From the NCBI RefSeq assembly GCF_900099835.1, contig NZ_FNKP01000003.1, positions 1,302,001-1,366,000 of the forward strand: a stretch of DNA of 64,000 nt, given 5' to 3'. Positions 14,115 to 30,272 of the stretch are shown here, piece after piece. The number at the start of each line of letters is the position of its first letter. Position 1 is the stretch's first letter. The notes beneath the pieces are model-generated. The model ran no database searches. It saw only the letters and a program-made list of their open reading frames with translations, and was not told the DNA's origin. The translations under genes and the position numbers were made by a program. The stretch comes from Paraburkholderia fungorum. GTDB taxonomy: Bacteria > Pseudomonadota > Gammaproteobacteria > Burkholderiales > Burkholderiaceae.

Positions 14115-14142
14115 CTGAAATTCGACGAGCCACGCATTCGCC

Positions 14143-15201: not shown

Positions 15202-15338
15202 CCGATTTTCGAGAGCGTCTCGCCGTGAGTACTTGAACGTATGGAGGGATTTCAGCTGCCGCGCTGTCGGCGGACGCTAGTCGGCTACGAGCCATCCAAT
15301 TGCGTCATAACGCACAACCGCTTCGTGCCGCTTTCCGT

Positions 15339-16265: not shown

Positions 16266-16397
16266 TCCTCAATAATACCGGGTTCTGTGTCAAATACACC
16301 TGCGTTTATCAAGCGTAGGTTATGGAATACAGTTCGGGCTTCGCGACGACTTGCACGGTTCTGTCCGGCTCGCGCGCGTCATTTCCCGCAAGGACCT

Positions 16398-17792
16398 ATG
16401 CGTACACAACACCCCACGCCGCGACAGTCATCGCGGCTCGCCCTGCTGGCGACGAGCCTCGGTTTCGTCCTCATCTGTCTCGACGTGACGGTCGTGAACG
16501 TCGCACTCGACCGCATGCGCGCGAGCCTCGCGCTGGACGCAACCGCGCTCGAATGGGTCGTCAACGCATACACGCTCGCGTTCGCGTGCCTGCTGCTCAC
16601 GGCGGGCGCGCTCGCCGACCGCTTCGGCGCGCGTCGGGTGTTCGTCAGCGGCTTCGTGGTGTTCACCTGCGCGTCGATCGGCTGCGGTCTTTCGGGCGAC
16701 GCGGCGATGCTCGTTGCGTCGCGAGTACTGCAAGGCGTGGGCGCGGCGCTGTGCGTGCCCTCGTCGCTGGCGCTGCTCGGCGCGGCATTTCCGGACCCGC
16801 ATGCGCGCGCCAGGGCCGTCAGCATCTGGGCCGGCACTGCGGCGCTGGCGCTCGGCGCCGGTCCGCTGGTCGGCGGCGTGCTGGTCGATCGTTTCGGCTG
16901 GCCGTCGATCTTCCTGATCAACGTGCCGATCGGCATCGCCGGCATCTGGCTCACGCTCAGGCATGCGCCCGACACGGTGCGTCGCGCGGCGCGCCGCATC
17001 GATCTGGCCGGGCAACTTCTTGCAATCGTCACGCTGGCTGCGTTGACGTATGCCGTCATCGAAAGCGGCCGCCTCGGCTGGATGAGTGCCACGGTCATGA
17101 CGAGCCTCGCGGCGATGCTAGTGGCGGGCTCGTTGTTCATCGCCGTCGAGGCGCGTCACGCGCAGCCGCTGTTGCCGCTTGCGCTGTTCCGCAACGCCGT
17201 GCTGAACGTCAGTTCGATCACGGGCTTTACGCTGAACTTCGGCTATTACGGGTTGATGTTCGCGATGAGCCTGTTTTTCCAGAATGCCCGTCACGACACG
17301 CCGCTCGAAACCGGCATCGCGTTCCTGCCGATGACCGCTGTCGTGACCATCGCGAACGTCGTATCGGGCCGCCTCACCGCACGCTTCGGTCATCGCTTGC
17401 CGATGGTCGTCGGCCAGTTGCTGGCAGCGCTCGGCTATGTCTCGCTGGCATTCATTCACGCCGACAGCGGCACGCTCGCCATCGCATTACCCTTGCTGGC
17501 CGTCGGAACAGGTGTTGCGCTCGCGGTGCCGTCGATCAATACCGCCGTGCTCGCGCATGTCGAATCGTCGTCTATCGGCATCGCTTCGGGCGTGCTGAAC
17601 ACCGCGCGGCAGATCGGCGGGGTCGTAGGCGTGGGCGTGTTCGGTTCACTCGTGCGCCCCGAGTCCGGCGATCTTGCCGCGGGCCTGCATGTTGCCGCGA
17701 TGCTCGCCTTCGTCATGACACTTTTGAGCCTCGTGACAATATGGATCGGCCTTGCAAAATCGGGATCGTCGGTCAAGGCATGTGCGAGTTGA
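16398..17792 (+). CDS. MFS transporter, DHA2 (14-helix) drug-efflux type
   Basis: A 464-residue membrane protein. Helix 1 carries the DHA2 signature (LICLDVTVVNVALDRMRASL). Motif A-like LADRFGARRVFVSG follows helix 2, and motif C-like SIWAGTAALALGAGPLVGGV is in helix 5. ATG 16398 follows AAGG at 16390-16393. The frame is open far upstream, antisense to the LysR gene, but this ATG gives the normal family N-terminus. No adaptor or outer-membrane partner is adjacent, so it probably works alone in the inner membrane. The exported compound is unknown. Confidence 0.88.
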   Translation: MRTQHPTPRQSSRLALLATSLGFVLICLDVTVVNVALDRMRASLALDATALEWVVNAYTLAFACLLLTAGALADRFGARRVFVSGFVVFTCASIGCGLSGDAAMLVASRVLQGVGAALCVPSSLALLGAAFPDPHARARAVSIWAGTAALALGAGPLVGGVLVDRFGWPSIFLINVPIGIAGIWLTLRHAPDTVRRAARRIDLAGQLLAIVTLAALTYAVIESGRLGWMSATVMTSLAAMLVAGSLFIAVEARHAQPLLPLALFRNAVLNVSSITGFTLNFGYYGLMFAMSLFFQNARHDTPLETGIAFLPMTAVVTIANVVSGRLTARFGHRLPMVVGQLLAALGYVSLAFIHADSGTLAIALPLLAVGTGVALAVPSINTAVLAHVESSSIGIASGVLNTARQIGGVVGVGVFGSLVRPESGDLAAGLHVAAMLAFVMTLLSLVTIWIGLAKSGSSVKACAS

Positions 17793-18036: not shown

Positions 18037-18462
18037 ATGACTCGACTTCGTATTACATCCTGCGGCCTGACTTTTATTGCTGAAGCCAATCCCGACGCAC
18101 CGAAAACTGTTGCTGCTTTTATGAAGCTGCTTCCGTACACGCAAAAAATCATTCACGTACGCTGGAGCGGCGAGGGCTGCTGGGTGCCGCTCGGCGAATT
18201 CAAACTCGAAAATGACGGCGTAGAAGTAGGGTTCGAGAATCACACGAGTCACCCGTCGGTTGGCGACATTCTTTTTTACCCGGGCGGCTATAGCGAAACC
18301 GAAATCATCATGGCGTACGGATCGTGCCTGTTCGCAAGCAAGATGGGGCAGCTCGCAGGCAATCACTTCCTGACAATCGTCGAAGGTAAGGAAAATCTTC
18401 GCGAACTGGGCGTCAAGGTATTGTGGGAAGGTGCACAAGACATCACGTTCGAAGCGATCTGA
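18037..18462 (+). CDS. DUF3830-family protein (cyclophilin-like fold)
   Basis: A 141-residue protein recognised by FIAEANPDAPKTVAAFMKLL, the central VRWSGEGCWVPLGEF and the C-terminal HFLTIVEGKENLRELG. These match the DUF3830 family, a small cyclophilin-like domain often found beside amidase, hydantoinase or dihydropyrimidinase genes. ATG 18037 is taken because similarity begins there; a longer frame from 17926 has no family match. A strong terminator follows 15 bases after the stop. It is convergent with the FmdB/dihydropyrimidinase operon and probably belongs to the same pathway. Its biochemical role is unknown. Confidence 0.7.
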   Translation: MTRLRITSCGLTFIAEANPDAPKTVAAFMKLLPYTQKIIHVRWSGEGCWVPLGEFKLENDGVEVGFENHTSHPSVGDILFYPGGYSETEIIMAYGSCLFASKMGQLAGNHFLTIVEGKENLRELGVKVLWEGAQDITFEAI

Positions 18463-18477
18463 AGTTCCTGAAGATCC

Positions 18478-18510
18478 CGAAGGGCGCTGTTCACCGAACA
18501 GCGCCCTTCG
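18478..18510 (+). terminator. Rho-independent terminator after the DUF3830 gene
   Basis: A perfect 15-bp inverted repeat (CGAAGGGCGCTGTTC at 18478-18492, complement at 18496-18510) with a 3-base loop is followed by TCTATTTT. It lies 15 bases after the stop at 18462. The T-tract is on the plus strand only, so it mainly serves the DUF3830 transcript. Confidence 0.85.
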
Positions 18511-18614
18511 TCTATTTTCGTCTATTGCAAAGCCGTTCAGACTGACGATTGCACTGGCACCGCTGATAAAGCGGAAAAAGTGCGCCTACGCATTAGCGCG
18601 ACAGGCGCCGCGCG

Positions 18615-18836
18615 TTAAACGCAGCAGAGACAACTTTTCGCGTGCCGGCCTAAATAAGCGCCGTCATTCTCGACCGGGGTCTCGTCGCCGCGTGTGAGCA
18701 GCATGGGCAAGCCATTCTGCGAACGTGCCGATGACGCACCGCATTGCGGGCACGGCGCAGGTTCATCGCGCAACGCGACGCGGCGTATCTGGTCGAATAC
18801 GCCGCAGGTTTCGCAACGGTAGTTGTAGATCGGCAT
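18615..18836 (-). CDS. FmdB-type zinc-ribbon protein
   Basis: A 73-residue protein from ATG 18836 (MPIYNYRCETCGVFDQIRRV). It has the CxxC...CxxC pair of an FmdB zinc ribbon (RCETCG at about 7-12 and CPQCG near 28-32) and an extra terminal CLCC. FmdB-type proteins sit in formamidase/acetamidase operons, where a regulatory role has been proposed. It is the last gene of the six-gene operon, 13 bases after the dihydropyrimidinase stop. Upstream codons are in frame but belong to the end of the preceding gene. Confidence 0.75.
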   Translation of the reverse strand: MPIYNYRCETCGVFDQIRRVALRDEPAPCPQCGASSARSQNGLPMLLTRGDETPVENDGAYLGRHAKSCLCCV

Positions 18837-18849
18837 GGCGTGGCGAGCG

Positions 18850-20277
18850 TCAGAAATGAGCGCCGAGTTCGCCGCGCGCAACGAACTGACCACCGCCGCT
18901 GCGTCCCACCCACTGGCCGTCGTCGATCAGCAATTCGCCGCGCAACAGTACTTTCTTCACGCGGCCCGTAACCTCGTGACCTTCGAAGAGCGTGAAATCG
19001 CAATCGCTATGTTGCGTGTCTGCGCTGATGGTGTGAGCTTCGCGCGGATCGAACAGAACGATATCCGCGTCGCTGCCGATCGCGAGTGTGCCCTTCTTCG
19101 GAAACAGTCCGAACAGTTTGGCGGGCGCTGTCGACGTCAATTCGACGAAACGGTTCAGCGAAATGCGACCGGTACGAACACCGCCGTCATAGACCACCGT
19201 CATGCGCGTTTCGACTCCCGGCACGCCGTTCGGAATCTTGGAGAAATCGTCGGCACCGAGCGGCTTCTGATTCACGTTGCCACGATGGCCTTCCTTCATG
19301 CAATACGGGCAGTGGTCGGTGGAAATCAATTGCAGGTCGTCGGTCTTCAGCGCGGTCCACAACGCGTTTTGCGCTTCTTTCGAGCGCAGCGGCGGACTCA
19401 TCACATAGCGCGCCATGTCGAAGCTATCGTCGGCGTAAGCGGTCTCGTCGAAGAACAGATAATGCGGACAGGTTTCCGCAAACACCGGAATGCCGAGATC
19501 GCGCGCTTCGATCACATGTTTGAGCGCCTCTTTCGCGGACAGGTGGACGAAATAGACCGGCGCCTCCGCGAGTTCCGCTAGCTTGATGCCGCGATGCGTG
19601 GCTTCGCCTTCCATGATCGCGGGACGTGTCAGCGCATGATGGCGCGGCGATGTATGGCCTTGCGCGAGTGCTTCGCGAATCAGCAGGTCGATGACCGTGC
19701 CGTTTTCCGCGTGCAATGCGATCATGCCGCCGTGCTGACCGACCATCCGCATCGCCTGAAAAATCGATGCATCATCGGACATCACCGTGCCGGGATAGGC
19801 CATGAACATCTTGAAGCTCGATACGCCCTCGTGCCGGATCGCATGTTGCATGTCGGCGAGCACCTGATCGTCGACCCGGGTGACGATCACATGGAATCCG
19901 TAGTCGATATGCGAGACCGAGCCGGCCTTTTGCTGCGCACGCGCGATCGCGTCGAGCGGACCCGTGCCGGCGTCCTGCAACGCAAAGTCGATGATCGTCG
20001 TCGTGCCGCCGAATGCAGCAGAACGCGTGCCGGAATCGAAGTTATCGCACGTGACAGAAGGACCGAAAGTATTTTCCATGTGCGTGTGCGCATCGACGCC
20101 GCCGGGAAATACCAGCAATCCTGTTGCATCGATCACTTTGGTATCCGGGCCTGCTTCGATCTGATGACCGATGCAAACAATCCGTTCGCCTTCGATAACG
20201 ATGTCGGCGACATAGTCGTCAATGGCGGTAATCAGGCGGCCGCCGCGAATCAGCGTGCGGGTCGTGGTTTGCGTCAT
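18850..20277 (-). CDS. Dihydropyrimidinase/hydantoinase-family cyclic amidohydrolase
   Basis: A 475-residue amidohydrolase. The metal-binding HxH is at 64/66 in GVDAHTHME. The carbamylated bridging Lys is at about 156 (SSFKMFMAYPG). Further metal ligands are in ALHAEN and FVHLSAKEAL, and the late Asp in STDHCPY. The family opens cyclic ureides and imides such as dihydropyrimidines and hydantoins. Length matches dihydropyrimidinases (about 470-490). The start overlaps the DapA-like gene stop by 4 bases (20274-20277). No beta-ureidopropionase or carbamoylase gene lies nearby, so ordinary pyrimidine breakdown is unlikely; the natural substrate is open. Confidence 0.87.
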   Translation of the reverse strand: MTQTTTRTLIRGGRLITAIDDYVADIVIEGERIVCIGHQIEAGPDTKVIDATGLLVFPGGVDAHTHMENTFGPSVTCDNFDSGTRSAAFGGTTTIIDFALQDAGTGPLDAIARAQQKAGSVSHIDYGFHVIVTRVDDQVLADMQHAIRHEGVSSFKMFMAYPGTVMSDDASIFQAMRMVGQHGGMIALHAENGTVIDLLIREALAQGHTSPRHHALTRPAIMEGEATHRGIKLAELAEAPVYFVHLSAKEALKHVIEARDLGIPVFAETCPHYLFFDETAYADDSFDMARYVMSPPLRSKEAQNALWTALKTDDLQLISTDHCPYCMKEGHRGNVNQKPLGADDFSKIPNGVPGVETRMTVVYDGGVRTGRISLNRFVELTSTAPAKLFGLFPKKGTLAIGSDADIVLFDPREAHTISADTQHSDCDFTLFEGHEVTGRVKKVLLRGELLIDDGQWVGRSGGGQFVARGELGAHF

Positions 20278-21242
20278 GAGTCGCTCCGGTCGTGGTCAAT
20301 CGCAAGTTCAAATGAGAGGGCAAATGACAGCGCCTGGTCGAGCTGCGCAGTCTCTGCTGCCGTGAGGGTCGGAATCGGCGGACGTGCGCACGCATGCGGA
20401 AATTTGCCGAGTAAATGCAGGCAGGCCTTGAGCCGCGCGTTCGCATGCGAGCCCGGCGCGGTGCCGTAAATGGCCTTTGCCAGCGGATAAACGTGTTCGT
20501 TCAACCGCTGTGCTTCGGCAAGATTGCGCTCCTGCAACGCGCGGTATAGCGCCACGACCAGTTCGGGCACGACCGCCGCAAGACTGACGACGCTGCCTTC
20601 GGTGCCGATCGCGAAACACGTGAACAGATGCTCGTCGCCCGAGGCCATCACGGCGACGTGCGGTGCGGCAGCCTTCACGAGGCGGCGGTTCGCTTCGTAT
20701 CGGGCGGTTTCCCAACTGCCTTCCTTGATCGCGACGACCTCGGGAAGCTTGACCAGCGCCGACAGCATGTCAGCGGTATAAGCCATCGCACCGGTGCCGA
20801 CGCCGGCCTGATAGAGCATCATCGGCAAGTGTGCGTTCGCGTTGGCGATCTGATGATGATTGACGACGGTCGCGAGATCGGTCGACAGAGCCCACGAATA
20901 AGGCGGAAACAGCAGCGTCAGATCGGCGCCGGCGGCTTTGGCATCGTCGGTATGTGCTTGTGCTTCGAAACTGTCTTCCGAGTTCACGCCCGCAACGATG
21001 ATCGAACGATCGCCGCACACCTCATGCGCAATGTCGAGCACGCGTCGCTTGTCGTCGCGGGACAGCGCGAAGTTTTCGCCGGCATGACCGTTGATCAGCA
21101 GGCCCGCGATGCCGTCCACGGATGCAAGCGTATCCAGATGATTCGCCAATGCGGCTTCGTCGAGATGGCGGCCGTGTGCATCAAGCGGACACAGTGCGGC
21201 GGCATAAACGCCGTTAAGAGGAGCGTCGTGCGAGGGGATCAT
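20274..21242 (-). CDS. DapA-family (dihydrodipicolinate synthase-like) aldolase/deaminase
   Basis: A 322-residue class I aldolase-superfamily protein from ATG 21242. The Schiff-base Lys is at about 173 (VVAIKEGSW) and the proton-relay Tyr at about 144 (MMLYQAGVG). The loop GLLINGHAGENFALS replaces the GTTGE motif of true DapA. True DapA is unlikely given the operon. In L-hydroxyproline catabolism a DapA-family enzyme deaminates pyrroline-4-hydroxy-2-carboxylate after a heterotrimeric D-hydroxyproline dehydrogenase. The three oxidase-type genes upstream here make a comparable step plausible, but that is inference. It overlaps its neighbours by 4 bases on each side. Confidence 0.8.
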   Translation of the reverse strand: MIPSHDAPLNGVYAAALCPLDAHGRHLDEAALANHLDTLASVDGIAGLLINGHAGENFALSRDDKRRVLDIAHEVCGDRSIIVAGVNSEDSFEAQAHTDDAKAAGADLTLLFPPYSWALSTDLATVVNHHQIANANAHLPMMLYQAGVGTGAMAYTADMLSALVKLPEVVAIKEGSWETARYEANRRLVKAAAPHVAVMASGDEHLFTCFAIGTEGSVVSLAAVVPELVVALYRALQERNLAEAQRLNEHVYPLAKAIYGTAPGSHANARLKACLHLLGKFPHACARPPIPTLTAAETAQLDQALSFALSFELAIDHDRSDS

Positions 21243-22438
21243 TGCGTGTGTTCTCGAGGGGAAAGTGCTGGCGCATCGTGTGCGGACGTTGGCGCGATTA
21301 GCCGCGCGGGATCGAACAGGGGCAACTCGGGCGTCTCGCCAAGGATTGCCTGCGAGAGCAGCTTGCCCATGTAGGGGCCGCTCGTATAACCGGAATGGAC
21401 GCAGCCGATGACATAGGCGTGATCGAGGCCGGGCAGCGCGCCGATCATCGGCATGGCGTCGGCGGTTTCCGATTCGAGTCCGAGCCAGATCCGCGCGACG
21501 CGGGCTTTGGCGAGAGCAGGGATCACGTGCTGTGCGAGGCGCAGATTGCCAGTCAGGTTTTGCGGAATGGTCTCGACCGGACCACGTTCGCGATCTCCGA
21601 CACCTTGCCAGCCGCCGCCTATGACGACGCTGCCGTTCGCGAACTGCTTCATCGACAGAAGACCGTTGGCAATACTCAGCACGGTGCGCATGACGGGCGG
21701 CATCCGTTCGGTCACGATCAGCTGGTTGACCAGCGTTTTGACGGGAATGTGAATGTCGAGCATGTCGAGCAGCGGTTCGAGCCAGACGCCGCCTGCCATC
21801 ACGATGCGCGTCGAGTCGATGACGAGTGGTTGCTTGCCCGCCTGCGATCCATCTACGCGATAGCACCCGTTCAACTTTTCGATGCGTGTCACCGCGGTGT
21901 TTTCGATGATTTGCACACCGGCCGCGCTTAATGCGGCGCGATAGGCACGACCAGTGAGATACGCGCTTGCGAAGCCGTCGGTGGTGCAATGTGCGGCTTC
22001 CAGCATCGCCGGATTAAGACCAGGTTCGATCCGCAGCGCGGTTTCGGCATCGAGCAGATCGATCTCCGCGCCATATTCGCGGCGCGCGGCGGCACGCGCA
22101 CGCAGCAGGTCGCGTTCGTTTTCAGTGAATGCCAGCGACAGTCCGGGCGCAGCGGTCGCGAGCACGCCCTCGCCGAGCCACTGGTCGGTTTCCATCCACA
22201 TCTTCCATGCGTGGATGGCATAGGGCACGAGCGCAGCGCGCGTCATGTGCAGGGTCAGCGTGCCTGCGTTGACGCCCGAGGCAGCGCGGCACAGCGCATC
22301 GCGTTCGATCAGTGTGACCCGCATGCCGCCCCGGGCAAGAAACAACGCGGTGGTGCAGCCCATGACGCCGCCGCCGATGACGGTGACGTCGATCGGTTTG
22401 TGCAGCGTGTCGAGCGAGGACATGTTCCGGTCGTTCAT
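21239..22438 (-). CDS. FAD-dependent amino/imino-acid oxidoreductase (DAO family, beta-type subunit)
   Basis: A 399-residue flavoprotein from ATG 22438. It has a Rossmann dinucleotide-binding start (DVTVIGGGVMGCTTALFLAR, then ERD) and the DAO-family end VIGCVHSGYTSGPYMGKLLS. It matches the substrate-oxidising FAD subunit of three-part opine oxidases and D-hydroxyproline dehydrogenases (OoxB/HcnC type). The neighbouring 2Fe-2S and FAD/2Fe-2S proteins would be the other two subunits. These membrane-associated enzymes oxidise a C-N bond and pass electrons to the respiratory chain. It overlaps both neighbours by 4 bases. The substrate is not determinable from sequence. Confidence 0.82.
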   Translation of the reverse strand: MNDRNMSSLDTLHKPIDVTVIGGGVMGCTTALFLARGGMRVTLIERDALCRAASGVNAGTLTLHMTRAALVPYAIHAWKMWMETDQWLGEGVLATAAPGLSLAFTENERDLLRARAAARREYGAEIDLLDAETALRIEPGLNPAMLEAAHCTTDGFASAYLTGRAYRAALSAAGVQIIENTAVTRIEKLNGCYRVDGSQAGKQPLVIDSTRIVMAGGVWLEPLLDMLDIHIPVKTLVNQLIVTERMPPVMRTVLSIANGLLSMKQFANGSVVIGGGWQGVGDRERGPVETIPQNLTGNLRLAQHVIPALAKARVARIWLGLESETADAMPMIGALPGLDHAYVIGCVHSGYTSGPYMGKLLSQAILGETPELPLFDPARLIAPTSAHDAPALSPREHTQ

Positions 22439-23868
22439 AGCGGTGCCGCCTTCGGGATCGGAATGTCGTCGTATTTGAATGCTCCAGTCAGGGCTTCGAC
22501 CGTCACGGGACGCAGTGGCGTACGGGCAGAAAAGCAGCCGACGTCTTCGCGCGAGTTCGCACCCATGCGACGCATCAGAAGCTCGCCTGCGACGTCGCCG
22601 CACGTGCGCCCCTGGCACGGGCCCATCCCGCAGCGCGTCCATGCCTTGAGTTGATTGACATCGTGTGCGCCCGCATCGCAGGCCGCGTCGATCTCCGCGC
22701 GCGTGACGTCCTCGCACCGGCAGACGATGGTATCGGGCGCGATGCTGTCGACGTGACCAGCGCGCAACGCCATCAGGTTCGCCATCGCATGACCGAAACG
22801 GGAGGCATCCCGGTGCGCCTGGCGCAGATCGGCGACGCGTTTGGCGGCGATAGCTCCGCTCGCGCCGAGATCGCGCGCGCAGGCGAGTCCAGCGAGCATG
22901 CCGTGGGTTGCGGCCGCGGCGGCGCCGGCGATCCCCGCACCGTCGCCCGCGACATACAGCAGAGGACGGGAGGTGCGGCCGTCGGCGTCGGCTACGGCAA
23001 CCCAGCCACCGGCCGCACGTGAATAACGATGCTCGGCGCGCAACAGACGCGTGATTTCGCTGGAAGGCGTGAGACCGTGGCCGACCGCGATGCAGTCGCT
23101 CAACACGGTTTTGCGCTCGCCGTCGATCACCCGGCCAGCGGCGTCGCAAGGGGCAAGCGTGGCACGCAGGCGGTCGCCGGCCGGTTCGACGCGAACGATC
23201 GTATGGCGTGCGTAACGGGGCGTACCTGCGCGGCGAATCGCGTTCCACCATTTGAAACCCTGGCGAAGCAGATCGAGCCGCCCGAGCATCGCGGGCATCG
23301 CGCGCGCCCAGTCGCCGGTGCTGGCGAGATCGACGATCGCTTCGACCTTGCCGCCGCCTTCCAGCGTCTTGGCGGCGACCGCAGCCAGCAGCGGGCCGCA
23401 GCCGGCGACCAGCGTCGAACGCCCGGGCAGCATGTGCTGCGACTTCAGCAGGATCGTCGCCGCGGCGAGACCGATGACGCCGGGCGTCGTCCATCCTTCG
23501 AACGGTACGACACGCTCGGTCGTACCGGATGCGACGATCAGCGCGCGTGCGGTGCAGTGAAGCGGACCGTCGGGGCCGGTTGCATCGACGCGATAGTTGC
23601 CCGTCACCGCCCAAACCGGATGACGGAAGAAAGCGGTGACATTGCTCGCCGCCAGCTCGCTGCGCAATGCATCGCCTGCGGCCTGATCTGCGCCTGGCGT
23701 CGGTGCGACGCCGGCGATCGGCGCGCGATACACCTGGCCGCCCGCCGATACGTTTTCATCGAACAGCGCGACGCGCAATCCGGTAGAGGCCGCCGCCATA
23801 GCCGCCTGCGCGCCGGCGGGGCCGCCGCCCAGCACGATCACATCGAACGAGGACATCATGTCAGACAT
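22435..23868 (-). CDS. FAD/2Fe-2S oxidoreductase (opine oxidase / HcnB-type alpha subunit)
   Basis: A 477-residue protein. The N-terminal pyridine-nucleotide-disulfide-oxidoreductase fold starts SFDVIVLGGGPAGAQAAMAA, with a second nucleotide site near LVAGCGPLLAAVAAKTLEG. The C-terminal BFD-like 2Fe-2S domain has CRCEDVTRAEI and CGMGPCQGRTCG. This layout is that of the OoxA/HcnB subunit of heterotrimeric opine, nopaline or D-hydroxyproline dehydrogenases and of hydrogen cyanide synthase. Hydrogen cyanide synthase is unlikely because of the DapA and hydantoinase neighbours. The start overlaps the small 2Fe-2S gene by 8 bases and the stop overlaps the FAD gene by 4. Confidence 0.85.
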   Translation of the reverse strand: MSDMMSSFDVIVLGGGPAGAQAAMAAASTGLRVALFDENVSAGGQVYRAPIAGVAPTPGADQAAGDALRSELAASNVTAFFRHPVWAVTGNYRVDATGPDGPLHCTARALIVASGTTERVVPFEGWTTPGVIGLAAATILLKSQHMLPGRSTLVAGCGPLLAAVAAKTLEGGGKVEAIVDLASTGDWARAMPAMLGRLDLLRQGFKWWNAIRRAGTPRYARHTIVRVEPAGDRLRATLAPCDAAGRVIDGERKTVLSDCIAVGHGLTPSSEITRLLRAEHRYSRAAGGWVAVADADGRTSRPLLYVAGDGAGIAGAAAAATHGMLAGLACARDLGASGAIAAKRVADLRQAHRDASRFGHAMANLMALRAGHVDSIAPDTIVCRCEDVTRAEIDAACDAGAHDVNQLKAWTRCGMGPCQGRTCGDVAGELLMRRMGANSREDVGCFSARTPLRPVTVEALTGAFKYDDIPIPKAAPL

Positions 23869-24199
23869 CGATGCCTGTCTCCGGGACGGTTTCTATACGC
23901 ATGCCGTTTACAACCGACGTTTGACACGCCAGCACTCTGCTGCCGTTGACCATCACCAGACACTCCTGACAGGAACCCATCAAACAGTACATACCGCGCG
24001 GCTGATTCAAACGCGGGCTGACACGCAAGGTCTTGACGCCTGCGGCGAACAGGGCGGCTGCGACGCTCTCGCCTGGGTGTGCGCAATAGCGCCGGCCATC
24101 AAGAAACAGCTCGACCGCAGCCGTGCGGTGGGGATCGTGAATACGCATTGCGTCCTCTTGGGCTTCGTTGCCGGCAGTGTTGCCAGGCTCGCTTGACAA
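23861..24199 (-). CDS. Small 2Fe-2S protein (HcnA-type gamma subunit)
   Basis: A 112-residue ferredoxin-like protein with VELFLDGRRYCAHPGESVAA. The cluster Cys pattern is MYCLMGSCQEC plus a later ACQT, as in the gamma subunit of heterotrimeric D-hydroxyproline dehydrogenase or opine oxidase. It is the first gene of the six-gene minus-strand operon. A start at the internal ATG 24148 (MRIHDPHR) is possible, since similarity begins near there. The divergent promoter region with the candidate GntR operator lies directly upstream. Confidence 0.83.
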   Translation of the reverse strand: MSSEPGNTAGNEAQEDAMRIHDPHRTAAVELFLDGRRYCAHPGESVAAALFAAGVKTLRVSPRLNQPRGMYCLMGSCQECLVMVNGSRVLACQTSVVNGMRIETVPETGIDV

Positions 24200-24221
24200 C
24201 TAATTTAGGCGATGTTTTGAT
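24193..24221 (+). promoter_or_regulatory. Candidate sigma-70 promoter of the amino-acid ABC transporter operon
   Basis: TTGACA at 24193-24198 is a perfect -35 box. After 17 bases comes TTTGAT (24216-24221), a four-of-six match to the -10 box. Transcription would begin close to 24228, where the GTATAC repeat begins, so a bound regulator would block initiation. The -35 box falls within the first codons of the divergent 2Fe-2S gene if its start is 24199. Prediction only. Confidence 0.5.
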
Positions 24222-24227
24222 GCTAAC

Positions 24228-24244
24228 GTATACGATACGTATAC
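24228..24244. promoter_or_regulatory. Candidate GntR-family operator in the divergent promoter
   Basis: GTATAC (24228-24233), five bases, then GTATAC (24239-24244). Each half is itself a palindrome, and the element has the short symmetric shape bound by FCD-type GntR dimers. A closely similar element, GTATAC-N5-GTATGC, lies in front of the GntR gene at 28029-28045. Repetition at the two expected places supports autoregulation plus control of both divergent operons. Confidence 0.65.
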
Positions 24245-24328
24245 GCAAAATCGCCAAAAAAACGAGGCACTGCGAATACCTCGCCGGAGTAGTCACTTCA
24301 TCATCACGCCCTCTCACGGAGTCATAGT

Positions 24329-25156
24329 ATGAAACCCTCGATCATGTTGAGCCGCCTGCTCGCAGCCGGTCTCGCGGCATGTGCGCTGCTCGGCTCAATC
24401 GATGCCAGCGCGCGGACCCTGGACGAAATCATTGCGTCGAAGAAGATCGTGTTCGGTATCAACCCGAACCTGCCGCCGCTCGGCACCTACGATGCAAAGA
24501 ACAATATCGACGGGTTCGATGTCGCGATTGCACGCAAGATCGCCGATTCGCTCGGCGTAAAGCTCGAAATCGTGCCGGTCGGTTCGAACGACCGCGTGCC
24601 TTTCCTGATGGCCGACAAGATCGATGCGGTCATGGGCGGGATGACCCGTAACGCCGATCGTCTGAAAGTGATCGACTTCACCGATCCGGTGAATACGGAA
24701 GTGCTGGGCGTGCTGACCACGCAGGACAAACCGTATAAAGACTATATGGCGTTGAACGATGCATCGGTGCGTCTCGTGCAGGTGCGCGGCACGACGCCGA
24801 TCAAGCTGATTCAGGACAAGCTGCCGAAGGCGCAGCTGCTGTTGCTCGACAACTACCCGGACGCTGTGCGTGCCATTGCGCAGGGTCGCGCCGATGCGCT
24901 GATCGATGTGCTGGACTTCATGTTGAGCTACACGAAGAACTATCAGACGAAATGGCGGGTGGTCGATGCACCGATCGAAGTGGATTACGACTGCATCGGC
25001 ATCAAGAAGGGCAACACGGCGTTGACCGAGCGGTTGAATAAGGAAATCGGCACGCTGCAAAAAGACGGGTATGTGGCGGCGAGCTGGAAGAAGTGGTTCG
25101 GCAGCCCGATGCTTTACGACCCGACCGCTGCGCCGCCGACCGTCGCTGCACAATAA
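24329..25156 (+). CDS. Polar-amino-acid ABC transporter substrate-binding protein
   Basis: A 275-residue periplasmic protein of the family-3 solute-binding class. A signal peptide occupies about residues 1-27 (LLAAGLAACALLGSIDASA, cleavage near ASA-RTL). The mature start KIVFGINPNLPPLGTYDAKN and the hinge segment DGFDVAIARKIADSLG are typical. It would capture an amino acid or related compound for the two permeases and ATPase downstream. It is divergent from the catabolic operon starting at 24199, with the GTATAC element between, so the ligand is probably the substrate of that operon. Confidence 0.88.
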   Translation: MKPSIMLSRLLAAGLAACALLGSIDASARTLDEIIASKKIVFGINPNLPPLGTYDAKNNIDGFDVAIARKIADSLGVKLEIVPVGSNDRVPFLMADKIDAVMGGMTRNADRLKVIDFTDPVNTEVLGVLTTQDKPYKDYMALNDASVRLVQVRGTTPIKLIQDKLPKAQLLLLDNYPDAVRAIAQGRADALIDVLDFMLSYTKNYQTKWRVVDAPIEVDYDCIGIKKGNTALTERLNKEIGTLQKDGYVAASWKKWFGSPMLYDPTAAPPTVAAQ

Positions 25157-25235
25157 TTCAATCGAGCGTGGTGCGCTGCTGCTTCGGCGATAAAGCGGCG
25201 GCACCGCGCCATTCGTTTCAGGGAGTGCGGATTCG

Positions 25236-25904
25236 ATGACGCTTCAATTCGGGCCGATCCTCGAGCAGTGGCCTTATCTGCTCGGCGGTGCATGGCTCAG
25301 TCTTCAGATTGCGGTGCTCGCATTCATTTTCGGCATGCTCATCGGCCTCCTGTGCGCGTCGATCCTGCGCTATGGACCGACGTTCCTGCGTCGTCTGGTG
25401 ACTGCGTATGTGACCTTTGCAACCAATACGCCGCAGCTGGTACAGATCTTTTTTCTGTTTTTCGGTCTGCCTGAAATCGGCATTACATTGTCGCCGTTCA
25501 CGGCCGTTCTGATCGGTGCGACTTTCAATGCCGGCGCTTATCTGTGCGAGATTCAGCGCGCGGGCTTCGCCTCGGTACGCTGGGCGGAAATCGAGGCAGC
25601 CGAAGTGCTCGGCTTTTCGACACCTCAAATCGTGCGTCACGTGATCTTTCCGCACGTGATGAAAGTGATGTTTCCGCCGTTGTCCAACCAGTTCATCGTG
25701 ATGACGCTTGGCACGTCGATGGCATCGATTTTCGGCGTCGAGGAATTGACTGGGCGTACCAGCAATATTGCATCGCAGACGTATCTGTCTGTCGAGGCGT
25801 TCAGTGTGGCCGCCGTGATGTATATCGGCATCACGATACTGGCGACCTTCGCACTCGCGATGTTCGGCCGTCACGTGTGCCGCGCGAAGATAAAGGTGTT
25901 TTGA
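25236..25904 (+). CDS. Amino-acid ABC transporter permease (HisM/GlnP family), first subunit
   Basis: A 222-residue inner-membrane protein with about five helices. The N-terminus WPYLLGGAWLSLQIAVLAFI is typical of polar-amino-acid permeases. The EAA-type cytoplasmic loop interacting with the ATPase is around IEAAEVLGFSTPQIVRHVIF. GGGAG at 25221-25225 lies 10 bases before ATG 25236. The stop overlaps the next permease start (TGATG), indicating coupled translation. Confidence 0.88.
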   Translation: MTLQFGPILEQWPYLLGGAWLSLQIAVLAFIFGMLIGLLCASILRYGPTFLRRLVTAYVTFATNTPQLVQIFFLFFGLPEIGITLSPFTAVLIGATFNAGAYLCEIQRAGFASVRWAEIEAAEVLGFSTPQIVRHVIFPHVMKVMFPPLSNQFIVMTLGTSMASIFGVEELTGRTSNIASQTYLSVEAFSVAAVMYIGITILATFALAMFGRHVCRAKIKVF

Positions 25905-26593
25905 TGGCCGGTTCGATGATGACTCAACTGACGCATCTGTTTTCGTACTACAACCTGCTGTTGCTGCTGGAAGGACTCGTCGCCACTTTCGTACTGTCGG
26001 CAATCGGCTGCCTTGCAGGTTTCGTCTCGGGTTTCGTGGTCGCGATACTGCGGGTCACGCGTTCGCGCGCGATGGCGCCGGTGCGCGCCATCGTGTTCGC
26101 GTATTGCCTCGTGTTCCGCCGCATACCGTTCCTTGTCACGCTGATGCTGGTGTTCTTTGCCACCCAGTCGCTCAACGCCAATCTCTCTACGTTCAGCGTC
26201 GCGTTGATCAGCGTCTGCCTGATCGCGTCGGCGTATCTTGGCGAGATTATCCGCAGCGGGCTGGAGTCGGTGCATGTCAACCAGTGGGAGGCGGCGAGCA
26301 CGCTCAATTTCAGTTACCTCGAAACGCTGCGTTTTGTGATCGTGCCGCAAGCATGGCGTGTCATTGTGCCGCCCACCTTCGGGTTTTTTGTGATGTTCAT
26401 CAAGGACACCGCGCTCGCATCGCAAATTGGTGTGATGGAGCTGACGTCTGCCGGCAAGGTGTTAAGCAACAAGGGGTTTTCCGCGACACTCGTGTATGGC
26501 GCGATCCTGGTGTTGTATTTCCTGATGTCGTATCCGTTGTCGCGCTTGGGTAAGCGCATGGAGAAGAAACTTGCCGCAACTCGAAATCGTTGA
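25904..26593 (+). CDS. Amino-acid ABC transporter permease (HisQ/HisM family), second subunit
   Basis: A 229-residue membrane protein with about five helices and an EAA loop (WEAASTLNFSYLETLRFVIV). It pairs with the permease just upstream. ATG 25904 shares one base with the previous stop and has AAGG at about 25893 before it; the longer upstream frame is a shadow of the first permease gene. Its 3' end overlaps the start of the ATPase gene by about 23 bases. Confidence 0.86.
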   Translation: MAGSMMTQLTHLFSYYNLLLLLEGLVATFVLSAIGCLAGFVSGFVVAILRVTRSRAMAPVRAIVFAYCLVFRRIPFLVTLMLVFFATQSLNANLSTFSVALISVCLIASAYLGEIIRSGLESVHVNQWEAASTLNFSYLETLRFVIVPQAWRVIVPPTFGFFVMFIKDTALASQIGVMELTSAGKVLSNKGFSATLVYGAILVLYFLMSYPLSRLGKRMEKKLAATRNR

Positions 26594-27308
26594 CCTGAAA
26601 GCGTCCTATGGACCGCATACCGTCCTCGAACGGATCAACCTCTCGGTGGAGAAGGGCGAGATCGTCAGCCTGATTGGTCCGTCCGGATCGGGTAAGAGCA
26701 CGCTGCTGCGCGTGCTGATGGGGTTGCTGCCGCCGGAACATGGAAACGTACGTCTGAATGGCGAAGCCGTGAACTACGCGAACAAAGCTGCGCTTCGCGC
26801 ATTGCGCTCGGATATCGCGATCGTATTCCAGCAGTACAACCTTTTCCAGAACATGACGGTGCTCGACAACGTCATGATTACGCCGACGAAGATAAAGGGT
26901 TGGCCGCGTCAGGAAGTCGAGAAGAACGCCATTGATCTGCTGACGCGAGTCGGTCTTGCTCATCGCCTGCATGCGTACCCCGACGAATTGTCGGGCGGGC
27001 AGCAACAACGGGTGGCGATTGCCCGCGCGCTAGCGTTGAAACCGAAGGTGTTGTTCCTCGACGAGGTGACGGCCGCGCTCGACCCCGAACTCGTGAACGA
27101 AGTGCTGGATACGATCCGGCAACTCGCATCCGACGGCATCACGATGTTTATCGTGTCGCACGAAATGAGTTTTGTTCGGGAAGTCTCGTCAAAAGTCGTG
27201 TTTATGGCGGGCGGTCATGTGATTGAATCCGGCACGCCGCAGCAGATATTCGATGCGCCTCAGGAGGCGAGGACACGAGAGTTCGTCGGCAAGATATTGC
27301 GGCACTAA
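26571..27308 (+). CDS. Amino-acid ABC transporter ATP-binding protein (GlnQ/HisP type)
   Basis: A 245-residue ATPase with Walker A GPSGSGKST, Q-loop VFQQYNLF, signature LSGGQQQR, Walker B VLFLDEVTAALD and switch His in IVSHE. The start appears to be TTG 26571, preceded by GGAGAAG at about 26560-26566, inside the end of the second permease gene; no in-frame ATG fits. The common DEPTSALD Walker B wording reads DEVTAALD here, as in some amino-acid importers. It energises uptake by the two permeases. Confidence 0.88.
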   Translation: MPQLEIVDLKASYGPHTVLERINLSVEKGEIVSLIGPSGSGKSTLLRVLMGLLPPEHGNVRLNGEAVNYANKAALRALRSDIAIVFQQYNLFQNMTVLDNVMITPTKIKGWPRQEVEKNAIDLLTRVGLAHRLHAYPDELSGGQQQRVAIARALALKPKVLFLDEVTAALDPELVNEVLDTIRQLASDGITMFIVSHEMSFVREVSSKVVFMAGGHVIESGTPQQIFDAPQEARTREFVGKILRH

Positions 27309-27345
27309 CGAGTTCGATGAACGTGCCCGGATTACTGAAACTGCC

Positions 27346-28002
27346 CTAACTGTAGGTACCTTCTGCGAGGCGTTCGAGTACGAACCGGCGTAGATTCTGC
27401 AAGTGTTGACGGACGGCCGCGCGAGATGCTTCGGCGTCGTCCGCCAGATAGGCTTCGAGAATGGCCAGATGTTCGGCACGATCTTCTTCGATACGATTGA
27501 ACGGTGTCACCAGTTCGAACAGACGGCTATTGGTGCGCACCAGATCGATCATATGCGCCAGCACGTCATTGCCGCTCGCGCGCGCCATCATGCTATGCAC
27601 CTGGTCGTCCAGTTGCCAGTGGGTCTGTTCCTGCTGGCCGTTGCCCAGCGCCTTGATCTTCTTGATCAATTGCTGAACGACCTTTTTCTCGATCTTGCCG
27701 ATGGCGAGACCAATCGCTTCCGCCTCCAGTAACTCGCGAACTTTCATTGCCTGAAAGTACTCCTGCGCGCTGACAAAGCGCACGGAGTACGAGCGGGCAC
27801 CCGCACGGACTAGCAGCCCTTCGCCTTCGAGGCGCAGCAACGCTTCGCGCATTGGCGTGCGAGAGATGTTGAGTTCTTCGGCAAGACGCCCTTCGACGAC
27901 AGGACCGCCGCTGCGCAACGCTTTATCGAGAATCATGCGGCGCAATGCGTGATACGCCAGGTCGCCCAATTTCTCGGGGTTTGGGGAAGAGGAATTAGCC
28001 AC
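27346..28002 (-). CDS. GntR-family (FCD/FadR subgroup) transcriptional regulator
   Basis: A 218-residue regulator. The winged helix spans about 10-80, with GGPVVEGRLAEELNISRTPM and LRLEGEGLLVRAGARSYSV. The all-helical FCD ligand-binding domain follows, with its metal-binding His/Asp set in DQVHSMMARASGNDVLAHMI and a late AEHLAILEA. Such proteins repress catabolic genes until a carboxylate or amino-acid metabolite binds. It is convergent with the amino-acid transporter operon, 37 bases apart. Its own promoter carries a GTATAC-N5-GTATGC element matching that in the divergent promoter at 24228-24244, pointing to control of the whole 18-28 kb block. Confidence 0.9.
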   Translation of the reverse strand: MANSSSPNPEKLGDLAYHALRRMILDKALRSGGPVVEGRLAEELNISRTPMREALLRLEGEGLLVRAGARSYSVRFVSAQEYFQAMKVRELLEAEAIGLAIGKIEKKVVQQLIKKIKALGNGQQEQTHWQLDDQVHSMMARASGNDVLAHMIDLVRTNSRLFELVTPFNRIEEDRAEHLAILEAYLADDAEASRAAVRQHLQNLRRFVLERLAEGTYS

Positions 28003-28022
28003 GCTGCCTCGCGGAAGTTATA

Positions 28023-28047
28023 CCGCAAGTATACGTTTTGTATGCGG
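28023..28047. promoter_or_regulatory. Candidate GntR autoregulatory operator
   Basis: GTATAC (28029-28034), five bases, GTATGC (28040-28045), flanked by CCGCA (28023-28027) and its complement TGCGG (28043-28047). The element lies 21 bases upstream of the GntR start codon at 28002. It shares half-site sequence and spacing with the element at 24228-24244. Confidence 0.6.
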
Positions 28048-28291: not shown

Positions 28292-29257
28292 TCACGCGTA
28301 CCGGCCGCCGCGCTGTACGAAGCTCAGCGCGAGCACCGCGAAAATCAGCACGCCGGTGGCGACCTGTTGCCAATAAAAATTCCATCCGATCAGCAACAAG
28401 CCGTTGGCAACGAGGCTGATCAGCAGGACTCCCAGCAGCGTGCCGGTGACACCGGGTCGCCGCGTCGGAGAAAGCGTCGTGCCGATGAACGTCGCGCCAA
28501 TCGCGTTGAGCAGAAACCCGTTTCCCGCCTGAGGCACGTACGCCTTCACCGTCGACGACAACAGCACGCCGACTACCCCATAGATCAACGCACTGGCGAT
28601 AAAGGTCCACGAAATGATCGCGCCCACCGGGAGTCCCGAGTAACGCGCGACGCCCGGCTGCTCGCCGAGTGCGCTCGCGTGCCGCCCGAACACCGAGCGG
28701 GCCAACACCACGTGGACCCCGACCGCGAGCAGCGCGACGACGCATAACGGCACGGGTACTCCCCAAAGTGCGCCGTGAGCCAGTTCGCTGAAATAGGGCG
28801 ACAGCGGTACGTTCAACAGATAGACGGGTTGTCCGCCATCGGTGGCGAGTTGCTGGACCGTCTGTCCGATGAACAGCGTGCCGAGCGTCGCGAGGAACGG
28901 CGCAATCCCTAGGCTCGCAATCAGCACGCTGTTCAATGCGCCGACTGTGAGCGCAGCCGCGAGGCCGCCAACGAGGGCGAGGGGCAGACTCGTCTGATGT
29001 GCGCTCAGCAAGACGAACACGAGACTGGCAACGTCGATCGACGTGCCTAGTGACAGATCGATCGCACCAATCGATAAGGCCAGTGTCATCCCAAGCGAGG
29101 CAATCGCCAGTAGCGCGAAGTTGTTGAGCAGGACATCCGCGAGATTGGCGGCGCGTGCAAAACCCGGTGCGACCACCGCGAAGAAGGCGACTACGGCAAG
29201 CAACGCGATTATCAGCGCGTAGCGTTGCAGATGGGCAATCCGTTCAATCATTCGCAT
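28292..29257 (-). CDS. Sugar-type ABC transporter permease (RbsC family), second subunit
   Basis: A 321-residue inner-membrane protein with about 8-10 helices. Typical RbsC-family segments are ALSIGAIDLSLGTSIDVASL and the late NGFLLNAIGATFIGTTLSPT. It is the last gene of the four-gene operon and overlaps the preceding permease gene by 14 bases. The transported sugar cannot be told from the permease. Confidence 0.87.
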   Translation of the reverse strand: MRMIERIAHLQRYALIIALLAVVAFFAVVAPGFARAANLADVLLNNFALLAIASLGMTLALSIGAIDLSLGTSIDVASLVFVLLSAHQTSLPLALVGGLAAALTVGALNSVLIASLGIAPFLATLGTLFIGQTVQQLATDGGQPVYLLNVPLSPYFSELAHGALWGVPVPLCVVALLAVGVHVVLARSVFGRHASALGEQPGVARYSGLPVGAIISWTFIASALIYGVVGVLLSSTVKAYVPQAGNGFLLNAIGATFIGTTLSPTRRPGVTGTLLGVLLISLVANGLLLIGWNFYWQQVATGVLIFAVLALSFVQRGGRYA

Positions 29258-30272
29258 GGTTCCCGGTGTGGCTTCGACGGATCACAGCGGTGGTCGCGAC
29301 GACGAACAGAATCAGCGCGCCCTCGACGCCGTTGACCCAATAGCTCGACACATTGTCGAGTTGAAAGCCGTTGTTGATGATGCCGATAAACAGCACGGCG
29401 AGTAGGGTGCCCGGAATAGTGGGTACGAGCCGCCGCGAGAACACGACACCCAGCAGTGCGGCGGCAACGACCGCCAGCAGGTTCTCGCCAGCGCCCGGCG
29501 AACTACCGCTCAACAACGCCGACGATGCCAGCGCCGCGAGCGCGGCCGCCACTCCGCTGAGGACGTAGCTTGCCCCGACATAGCGTCGGGTCGCGATCCC
29601 CGCCGCCCGGGCCGCGTCGCGATGCGCACCGGTAGCGCGAAGTCGCAAGCCGAACGGCGTGTAGTGAATCAGCGTGGTAAAAAGCGCGGCGACGATGACC
29701 AGGGCGTAAGCGAGATGCGGCACGTTGAACCGGTCGCTGTCCAGCAGGAACGCCATCACCGGCGACGCAACAGGAACGGAGGTGTTCTGCGTGAGGACGA
29801 GTTCGAGCCCTGCGGCGATATTCATCGTGGTCAGCGTGGCGAGTAGCGGAAAGATGCCGAGCACGATGACGGCAAAAGCGTTCAGCACGCCGAGGGCCGC
29901 ACCGGCCGCGACGGTGAGCGCGAGCGCCGCGCTTTCGGGCAGACCGTGGCGCAGCGTCACCGCATAGACTGCGGCGCACCAGCCCATGTTCGCCGCGATA
30001 GACAGATCGAGCCCGCCCTTGATCGGGTCCGCACCGCCGCCAATCAGCACCGCTGTCAGCCCAAAGCCGAGAATGCCGACGACAACCGATTGCTGCATCA
30101 CGTTCGCCAGATTGCTCACGCTCAGAAACAGCGGCGAACTCGCGGCGAACGAAAAGAACACCACCGCAAAGGCCAGCACGGCACCTCCGCGTAGCCAGAA
30201 CTGCGCGCCGAACCATCCCGCCGGCAGTGCGAGACGGGGGCGTGGGGAGGCACTGTCGAGCGCGTTGCTCAT
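29244..30272 (-). CDS. Sugar-type ABC transporter permease (RbsC family), first subunit
   Basis: A 342-residue membrane protein of the branched-chain/ribose permease superfamily, with helices such as GILGFGLTAVLIGGGADPIK and the loop GATGAHRDAARAAGIATRRY type. It overlaps the ATPase gene by 4 bases upstream and the second permease by 14 downstream. Two different permease genes suggest a heterodimeric channel. Confidence 0.87.
   Translation of the reverse strand: MSNALDSASPRPRLALPAGWFGAQFWLRGGAVLAFAVVFFSFAASSPLFLSVSNLANVMQQSVVVGILGFGLTAVLIGGGADPIKGGLDLSIAANMGWCAAVYAVTLRHGLPESAALALTVAAGAALGVLNAFAVIVLGIFPLLATLTTMNIAAGLELVLTQNTSVPVASPVMAFLLDSDRFNVPHLAYALVIVAALFTTLIHYTPFGLRLRATGAHRDAARAAGIATRRYVGASYVLSGVAAALAALASSALLSGSSPGAGENLLAVVAAALLGVVFSRRLVPTIPGTLLAVLFIGIINNGFQLDNVSSYWVNGVEGALILFVVATTAVIRRSHTGNHAND

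Follow-up and report, generated by a model that had tools for sequence, protein, structure and literature searches.

A probable catabolic locus in Paraburkholderia fungorum

The 64,000-nucleotide stretch of the Paraburkholderia fungorum genome analysed here (the window; contig NZ_FNKP01000003.1) contains a ten-kilobase locus whose gene set looks, from its sequence, like a single, separately regulated regulon for the uptake and breakdown of a small molecule, in line with the original prediction. Six minus-strand genes run from 24148 to 18615, and open-frame analysis confirms that they are chained, with successive overlaps of 8, 4, 4 and 4 bases and a final gap of 13 bases. Along the minus strand the order is gamma (2Fe-2S), alpha (FAD/2Fe-2S) and beta (DAO) subunits of a flavin dehydrogenase, a DapA-like enzyme, a ring hydrolase and FmdB; an alternative ATG of the beta gene at 22423 would leave an 11-base gap to the alpha gene instead of an overlap. 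Open frames and family matches likewise bear out a complete polar-amino-acid ABC importer that diverges from the chain, with a GntR/FCD regulator gene beyond it. A DUF3830 gene is located at the far end, as predicted. It lies on the plus strand, converging on the operon, and is therefore not part of the six-gene transcript.

The gamma, alpha and beta genes are in tandem and overlapping, as in enzymes of the D-hydroxyproline dehydrogenase, opine dehydrogenase and hydrogen cyanide synthase type. The [2Fe-2S] motifs of gamma and alpha and the dinucleotide motifs of alpha and beta were all found. The same genome encodes two more three-part flavoenzymes, at C3:402920 and C3:610932. We built a 14-row tree from alpha subunits only, in which the octopine oxidase subunit OoxA is the sole characterised row and the hydroxyproline row forms a long branch. 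The alpha subunits of the window and of loci with the same layout (type I, see below) make up a clade of their own (support 100/99), and the OoxA-like alpha subunit of C3:402920 (L040) groups with OoxA (98/98). The window's alpha subunit is 33% identical to OoxA.

The DapA-like enzyme has a predicted Schiff-base lysine, Lys173, and NGHAGE replaces the usual GTTGE-type loop; K173 and NGHAGE are both invariant across 13 aligned DapA sequences. Judged from these alignments, the conserved, predicted active-site loop of the NGHAGE subfamily differs from that of the DHDPS-family enzymes compared. Against the 4-hydroxy-tetrahydrodipicolinate synthase model TIGR00674 the protein reaches 105.6 bits, so far under the equivalog cut-off of 206.15 that we do not class it as the lysine-biosynthesis enzyme, a genuine DapA.

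The hydrolase retains H64, H66, K156, H189, H245 and D321, the residues that serve in this family as binuclear-metal ligands (HxH, K, H, H, D), together with Y161. Two more specific identities were rejected: allantoinase (280.8 bits, cut-off 357.85) and ErtD, the ergothioneine/hydantoin-5-propionate amidohydrolase (238.1 bits, cut-off 650).

Table 1. Features of the locus, with positions in the window
Feature	Position	Strand	Remarks
DUF3830 (PF12903) protein, cyclophilin-like fold	18037..18462	+	convergent with six-gene operon
FmdB-type zinc-ribbon protein	18615..18836	-	TIGR02605 50.5 bits, cut-off 31.3; 13-base gap to hydrolase gene
Dihydropyrimidinase/D-hydantoinase-type ring-opening hydrolase	18850..20277	-	TIGR02033 579.8 bits, cut-off 393.25; 4-base overlap with DapA gene
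DHDPS/DapA-family enzyme	20274..21242	-	PF00701 127.5 bits, cut-off 22.1; 4-base overlap with beta gene
Beta (DAO, FAD) subunit, three-part flavin dehydrogenase	21239..22438	-	PF01266 185.6 bits; GxGxxG; 4-base overlap with alpha gene
Alpha (FAD and BFD-type 2Fe-2S) subunit	22435..23868	-	Pyr_redox_2, Fer2_BFD, SO_alpha_A3; CxC...CxxxxC; 8-base overlap with gamma gene
Gamma (2Fe-2S) subunit	23861..24148	-	Fer2_4 87 bits; Cx4Cx2C...C
Putative paired palindromic operator CGTATACG-N3-CGTATACG	24227..24245	.	divergent promoter, between 2Fe-2S and substrate-binding protein genes
Periplasmic substrate-binding protein, polar amino acid type	24329..25156	+	PF00497 (SBP_bac_3) 109.7 bits
ABC permease 1	25236..25904	+	open frame; conserved in type I loci
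ABC permease 2	25904..26593	+	open frame; conserved in type I loci
ABC ATPase (TTG start)	26571..27308	+	open frame; conserved in type I loci
GntR-family regulator with FCD domain (GTG start)	27346..28002	-	PF07729 67.2 bits, PF00392 48.4 bits; convergent with ATPase gene
GTATAC half-site	28029..28034	.	upstream of gntR

The permeases and the ATPase in Table 1 are named from sequence and position, not from the family-library scan. Next to the regulon, at 28292-31897, two permeases and a double ATPase form a sugar-type ABC transporter, identified by eye, that looks unrelated.

The locus is distinct from the genome's hydroxyproline and pyrimidine operons

A separate hydroxyproline operon lies on contig C2. 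It encodes a 4-hydroxyproline epimerase (481.8 bits, cut-off 442), DAO, gamma and alpha proteins, a metabolite:H+ symporter-like protein (280.4 bits, under its cut-off of 443.45) and, divergently, a DapA-family enzyme whose hydroxyproline function is assigned from its position. The window DapA is 26% identical to this enzyme, with NGHAGE against a GSLGE loop. Above-cut-off Pro_racemase matches in this genome map to C2:1279072 and C2:2070130. On contig C1 lies a separate operon for reductive pyrimidine breakdown. Its PreA scores 749.6 bits (cut-off 335); the other products are a PreT/GltD-like protein whose best match is under its cut-off, an NCS1 carrier (393.4 bits, cut-off 353.1), an M20 hydantoinase/carbamoylase (418.1 bits, cut-off 204) and its own dihydropyrimidinase, to which the window hydrolase is 42-43% identical.

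A tblastn search of the 64 kb window (E <= 1e-4) found no match to this genome's epimerase, aldehyde dehydrogenase, PreA, PreT or NCS1 proteins, nor to ureidoglycolate lyase, acyl-CoA dehydrogenase or CoA-transferase queries. The absence of epimerase and aldehyde dehydrogenase genes had been part of the original prediction. Since both ordinary pathways sit elsewhere in the genome and their marker genes are unmatched in the window, we rejected the window operon both as a hydroxyproline operon and as a reductive pyrimidine operon, and the earlier claim that it is neither of these pathways stands.

The gene order recurs in scattered relatives

A scan of GTDB genomes with the window DapA protein yielded 24 loci. 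The type I layout is found in 16 of them (L006-L021), from Paraburkholderia, Caballeronia, Pseudomonas kuykendallii, Variovorax and Pusillimonas, and also occurs on plasmids of P. aromaticivorans (L069), Pantoea (L070) and Acidisoma (L072). Together with L062-L064 these make the 22 type I loci that we compared with the window; four further plasmid matches (H2, H6, H7 and H8) fall outside the loci read. Presence was counted from a tblastn table with a limit of 1e-5, at which small proteins such as FmdB may be missed.

The proposed check for the same gene order in other genomes gave a clear answer: the five-gene core (2Fe-2S, FAD, DAO, DapA and hydrolase) is uninterrupted in 20 of the 22 relatives, so the arrangement is not due to chance. 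The exceptions are L010, truncated at the edge of its contig, and L072, whose hydrolase gene is on the far side of the importer. Twenty of the 22 loci have a divergent importer (it was not seen in L007 and is cut in L010), and an FmdB gene follows the hydrolase in 16. The L072 hydrolase is a member of another subfamily (PRK13404, 789.2 bits, cut-off 647); being swapped yet still present, it suggests that the function was kept and the gene exchanged.

An M20 gene is present in six of the 22 loci, either in the importer operon (L009, L015, L062, L063 and L064) or beside the hydrolase gene (L021). At 228.4 and 230.9 bits (cut-off 217.6), the two M20 proteins scanned fall into the ArgE/DapE deacylase subfamily and not into the hydantoinase/carbamoylase subfamily. 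A gene in the Pantoea importer operon was considered as a ureidoglycine aminotransferase and rejected, its best score being for pyridoxamine-pyruvate transaminase (160.1, cut-off 600). FmdB proteins are named after formamidase operons; on the P. aromaticivorans plasmid pBN1 (L069) two acetamidase/formamidase-family genes follow the operon, at 13777-17324.

The distribution of the DapA-type locus is patchy. Profile matches to the window DapA at E <= 1e-75 were obtained in 13 of 398 genomes of the family, one of 399 of the order, one of 369 of the class and two of 398 of the phylum; each count includes the window's own genome, and since at most five or six candidates were scored per genome, misses are possible. 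Some of the genomes drawn may belong to the same species as loci listed here by name.

A paired palindrome and an unusual substrate-binding protein

The divergent promoter carries the paired site CGTATACG-N3-CGTATACG, which has a single occurrence in the 8.58 Mb genome even when up to two mismatches are allowed; the control search, with the pattern read backwards, gave five matches on each strand. GTATAC is rare, at 0.125 per kb across 17 type I loci, and is nevertheless found in the divergent promoter of 21 of 22 type I loci (initially 19 of 20, then L007 and L063; it is absent from L072), a count that leaves out L010, where the region is lacking. Most relatives conserve the putative paired operator; L015, L018-L021 and L070 have one GTATAC copy in the promoter instead of two. 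GTATAC also occurs upstream of gntR in 14 of 20 loci. We infer that the CGTATACG pair is a putative operator of the GntR protein, which would control this locus only.

Type I substrate-binding proteins (SBPs) share an I-D-V-(L/M/V)-D motif whose Val aligns to the usual Asp in 12 of 12 alignable rows (13 were tried; L021 was left out). They retain the conserved arginine that we take to be the ligand-carboxylate contact in this family, and the position aligned to the Val is presumably the alpha-ammonium contact. This pattern points to a carboxylate ligand with an unusual or absent alpha-amino group. Among structures, the window SBP matches the nopaline-binding protein 5ot8 (E 3.2e-9).

The flavoenzyme, DapA and ring hydrolase combination has been assembled more than one way

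In the other eight of the 24 loci (L022-L029), and on plasmid L071, a DapA relative (44-62% identical to the window's) and a dihydropyrimidinase share a cluster of a second architecture (type II). The flavoenzyme is absent from the fetched stretch, which covers about 10 kb on each side, less where a contig ends. The type II module comprises one or two family III coenzyme A (CoA) transferases, an acyl-CoA dehydrogenase and two MaoC dehydratases; L022-L029 also have a second NGHAGE-type DapA. The DapA and hydrolase genes are adjacent in L022, L023, L025, L026 and L071, which have a polar-amino-acid importer, and about 5-7 kb apart in the other four (L024 and L027-L029), where a DctP/TRAP-like binding protein was named by eye. 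L022, L023, L025 and L071, which add a ureidoglycolate lyase, have hydrolases with 74-76% identity to that of the window. For L024 and L026-L029 the identity is 37-41%; the only one of these hydrolases tested, that of L026, scores as a PRK13404 subfamily member (741.2 bits, cut-off 647).

Two further groups of CoA-type clusters were seen. L067 and L068 have a DapA (49%) and a hydrolase (40%) and were excluded from the counts. L057, L058, L060 and L061, from the window's family, have neither hydrolase nor window-type DapA; they carry importer components, a second NGHAGE-type DapA, a CoA-transferase, an acyl-CoA dehydrogenase, two MaoC proteins and a small EthD-like protein.

A third architecture (type III) was found in Aureimonas, Azospirillum (two loci), Agrobacterium vitis and two Rhizobium plasmids (L073, L077, L087, L078, L088 and L089). 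Here the 2Fe-2S, FAD/BFD and DAO parts of the flavoenzyme are fused in one chain (967 amino acids in L073, the one scanned). Its neighbours are a DapA of a different subfamily (5/6), a PRK13404-type hydrolase (5/6), importer components (6/6), GntR (5/6) and, by choice of query, DUF3830 (6/6). The type II SBP of L025 shares with the type III SBPs of L073, L077 and L078 an identity of 43-48% and a stretch (N/H)TG(I/M)F...R, from which type I SBPs differ. Structure look-ups in the PDB with the Azospirillum SBP, DapA and hydrolase gave no ligand or substrate lead.

By their sequences, the flavoenzymes, DapA-type enzymes and ring hydrolases that make up this combination are thus of different gene lineages. 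Such recurrent assembly, together with the hydrolase swap, is good evidence for ring opening as part of the pathway, and the recurring neighbourhoods support the predicted involvement of this chemistry. The original prediction had also tied the oxidase to the hydrolase and DapA, and had named their clustering without it as a refuting observation. The tie is not an inseparable one: both occur without the oxidase in eight of the 24 loci, beside the CoA-thioester module, and that refuting observation is thus partly borne out. The oxidase therefore looks like one of two exchangeable oxidation modules, which would not disprove a common pathway.

DUF3830 recurs beside ureide and cyclic-amide enzymes

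The window's DUF3830 product meets the Pfam family score and has the cyclophilin-like fold. Of 19 plasmid loci read, 16 place a DUF3830 gene near ureide or cyclic-amide enzymes, two of them weakly, and elsewhere DUF3830 is accompanied by Asp/Glu/hydantoin-racemase-family and carbamoylase genes. These recurring neighbourhoods support the proposed link to ring-opening chemistry. The gene lies beside the type I operon in two of the 22 relatives (L006 and L069). The word DUF3830 was not found in the open-licence PMC literature searched.

Other DUF3830 genes keep varied company. In the same genome, the cluster at L004:2577-10528 holds a copy 26% identical to the window's along with an aspartoacylase-like protein, a DAO-family enzyme and subunits of a Rieske ring-hydroxylating dioxygenase. 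The copy at L005:9677-10171, 87% identical, is isolated, its neighbours being a histidine kinase and a LuxR-type regulator. On R. johnstonii pRL10 (L074), where a further ureide pathway may be encoded, DUF3830 is accompanied by RidA, two amidohydrolases, a polar-amino-acid importer and a racemase-fold protein resembling EutA/Amdase.

A proposed pathway and its alternatives

On balance, the locus probably serves to take up and degrade, under GntR control, one small cyclic amide or ureide that bears a carboxylate and is not 4-hydroxyproline, uracil or thymine. The substrate would be of imide, hydantoin or dihydropyrimidine type. A carboxylate-bearing cyclic ureide or imide, for which we name no compound, appears to be the simplest fit because of the SBP pattern, the ureide neighbours and the intact dihydropyrimidinase.

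The importer would take the compound in, and the dihydropyrimidinase-type hydrolase would open its cyclic amide bond. The flavin dehydrogenase would then move electrons from an amino or imino C-N bond, presumably to the respiratory chain, leaving an imine or a 2-oxo acid, which the DapA-type enzyme may deaminate or cleave, via Schiff-base Lys173, to a central 2-oxo acid. GntR would sit on the CGTATACG sites and be released when an intermediate accumulates. DUF3830 and FmdB may be accessories of the ring-opening step. The earlier interpretation is supported in part: for a single regulon, for a pathway outside hydroxyproline and pyrimidine breakdown, for ring opening and for the DUF3830 link, but not for an inseparable oxidase.

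Several observations weigh against this proposal. The Val at the presumed alpha-amino contact of the SBP is flanked by Asp, so that the ligand could be something other than an alpha-amino acid. DUF3830 is missing beside the operon in 20 of 22 relatives, and the genome's other two copies lie near no ring hydrolase. Neither M20 type, carbamoylase or deacylase, has a tblastn match in the window at E <= 1e-4, and the deacylase of the relatives has no relative in this genome at E <= 1e-30, so that a later step is either missing or encoded elsewhere. Finally, with eight loci in which DapA and hydrolase lack the oxidase, each oxidation route may have a substrate of its own.

A bolder reading, entirely possible if somewhat short of probable, is that a natural and widespread cyclic ureide or amide is degraded by an undescribed pathway that was assembled at least twice from different enzyme lineages: once as a three-part flavoenzyme with the NGHAGE DapA and a D-hydantoinase, and once as a fused flavoenzyme with the other DapA, a PRK13404 hydrolase and DUF3830. 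DUF3830 would then be a dedicated cyclophilin-like partner, perhaps catalytic, in the breakdown of ureides and cyclic amides by bacteria and haloarchaea, and the NGHAGE DapA would have an activity not previously assigned.

A narrower form, which overlaps with our proposal, has a 5-substituted hydantoin opened to an N-carbamoyl-D-amino acid, an M20 carbamoylase releasing the D-amino acid, the flavoenzyme acting as a D-amino-acid dehydrogenase and DapA cleaving the 2-oxo acid. TIGR02033 covers D-hydantoinases, six of the 22 type I loci have the M20 gene of ArgE/DapE type described above, and the company that DUF3830 keeps elsewhere includes racemase-family and carbamoylase genes. We consider this scheme unlikely, however, as the two scanned M20 proteins are deacylases, the M20 deacylase is absent from 16 of 22 loci and has no relative in this genome at E <= 1e-30, and no racemase was seen in the operon.

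Less probable again is opine-type catabolism. Here the hydrolase would first open the lactam or lactone form of an N-substituted amino acid, which the flavoenzyme would then oxidise as an opine dehydrogenase. Three-subunit opine dehydrogenases of Burkholderia thailandensis have the same C-A-B order (PMC4575208). The SBP family includes the nopaline-binding protein, and the resemblance of the alpha subunit to OoxA has been noted. Yet in the 14-row tree the type I alpha clade stands apart from OoxA and its L040 relative, among the features listed around ooxA and ooxB in L084, a stretch ending inside ooxB, there is no DapA or dihydropyrimidinase, and PMC4575208 does not contain the word hydantoin. 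In general, dihydropyrimidinases suit ureides and imides more than lactams. The idea of agropinic acid as a lactam opine was dropped when agropinic acid and hydantoinase gave no match together in open-licence PMC literature.

That the locus is an ordinary 4-hydroxyproline or reductive pyrimidine pathway misread through its extra genes is strongly disfavoured and very improbable: a flavoenzyme beside a DHDPS-family deaminase is indeed the hydroxyproline pair (PMC4113996) and the hydrolase is classed as a dihydropyrimidinase, but this genome has both operons elsewhere, the pyrimidine one with its own hydrolase, NCS1 carrier and M20 carbamoylase, the marker genes are unmatched in the window, and the distant window DapA is without the loop of its hydroxyproline counterpart.

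The preferred reading, breakdown of a carboxylate-bearing cyclic amide or ureide, would make the locus a compact, testable route to a substrate that scattered plant- and soil-associated bacteria apparently import and degrade, and that no annotation met in this analysis names. The comparison also gives a neighbourhood-based and structural lead for DUF3830 and marks out a DapA subfamily with a distinctive loop.

Comparison with known systems

No description of this gene cluster was found in the open-licence PMC literature searched, judged by title and start of abstract. Four known systems resemble it in part. The trans-4-hydroxy-L-proline pathway (4-hydroxyproline epimerase, D-hydroxyproline dehydrogenase, pyrroline-4-hydroxy-2-carboxylate deaminase and ketoglutarate semialdehyde dehydrogenase), whose gene neighbourhoods are described in PMC4113996, likewise has three tandem flavoenzyme subunits beside a DHDPS-family enzyme. 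The window, in contrast, is without a match to the epimerase or the aldehyde dehydrogenase, its DapA is of a different subfamily, and it has a dihydropyrimidinase, FmdB and its own GntR and operator. Reductive pyrimidine catabolism (PreAT, dihydropyrimidinase and carbamoylase) shares the hydrolase family, with all metal-ligand residues, but no PreAT or nucleobase carrier is matched in the window and the genome's operon for it lies elsewhere.

The flavin opine dehydrogenases (OdhABC, OoxAB and NoxAB) are alike in subunit set, cofactor motifs, the B. thailandensis C-A-B order and an importer alongside; the window differs in the separate clade that its alpha subunit joins in the 14-row tree and in its partners, DapA and a dihydropyrimidinase. 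A hydantoinase operon with an RpoN site is mentioned for P. phymatum (PMC5979394). Purine/allantoin and hydantoin ureide clusters share DUF3830 with the window and, in four CoA-type relatives, ureidoglycolate lyase; unlike the ureide clusters compared, the window operon combines ring hydrolysis with a three-part flavoenzyme and a DapA-type enzyme.

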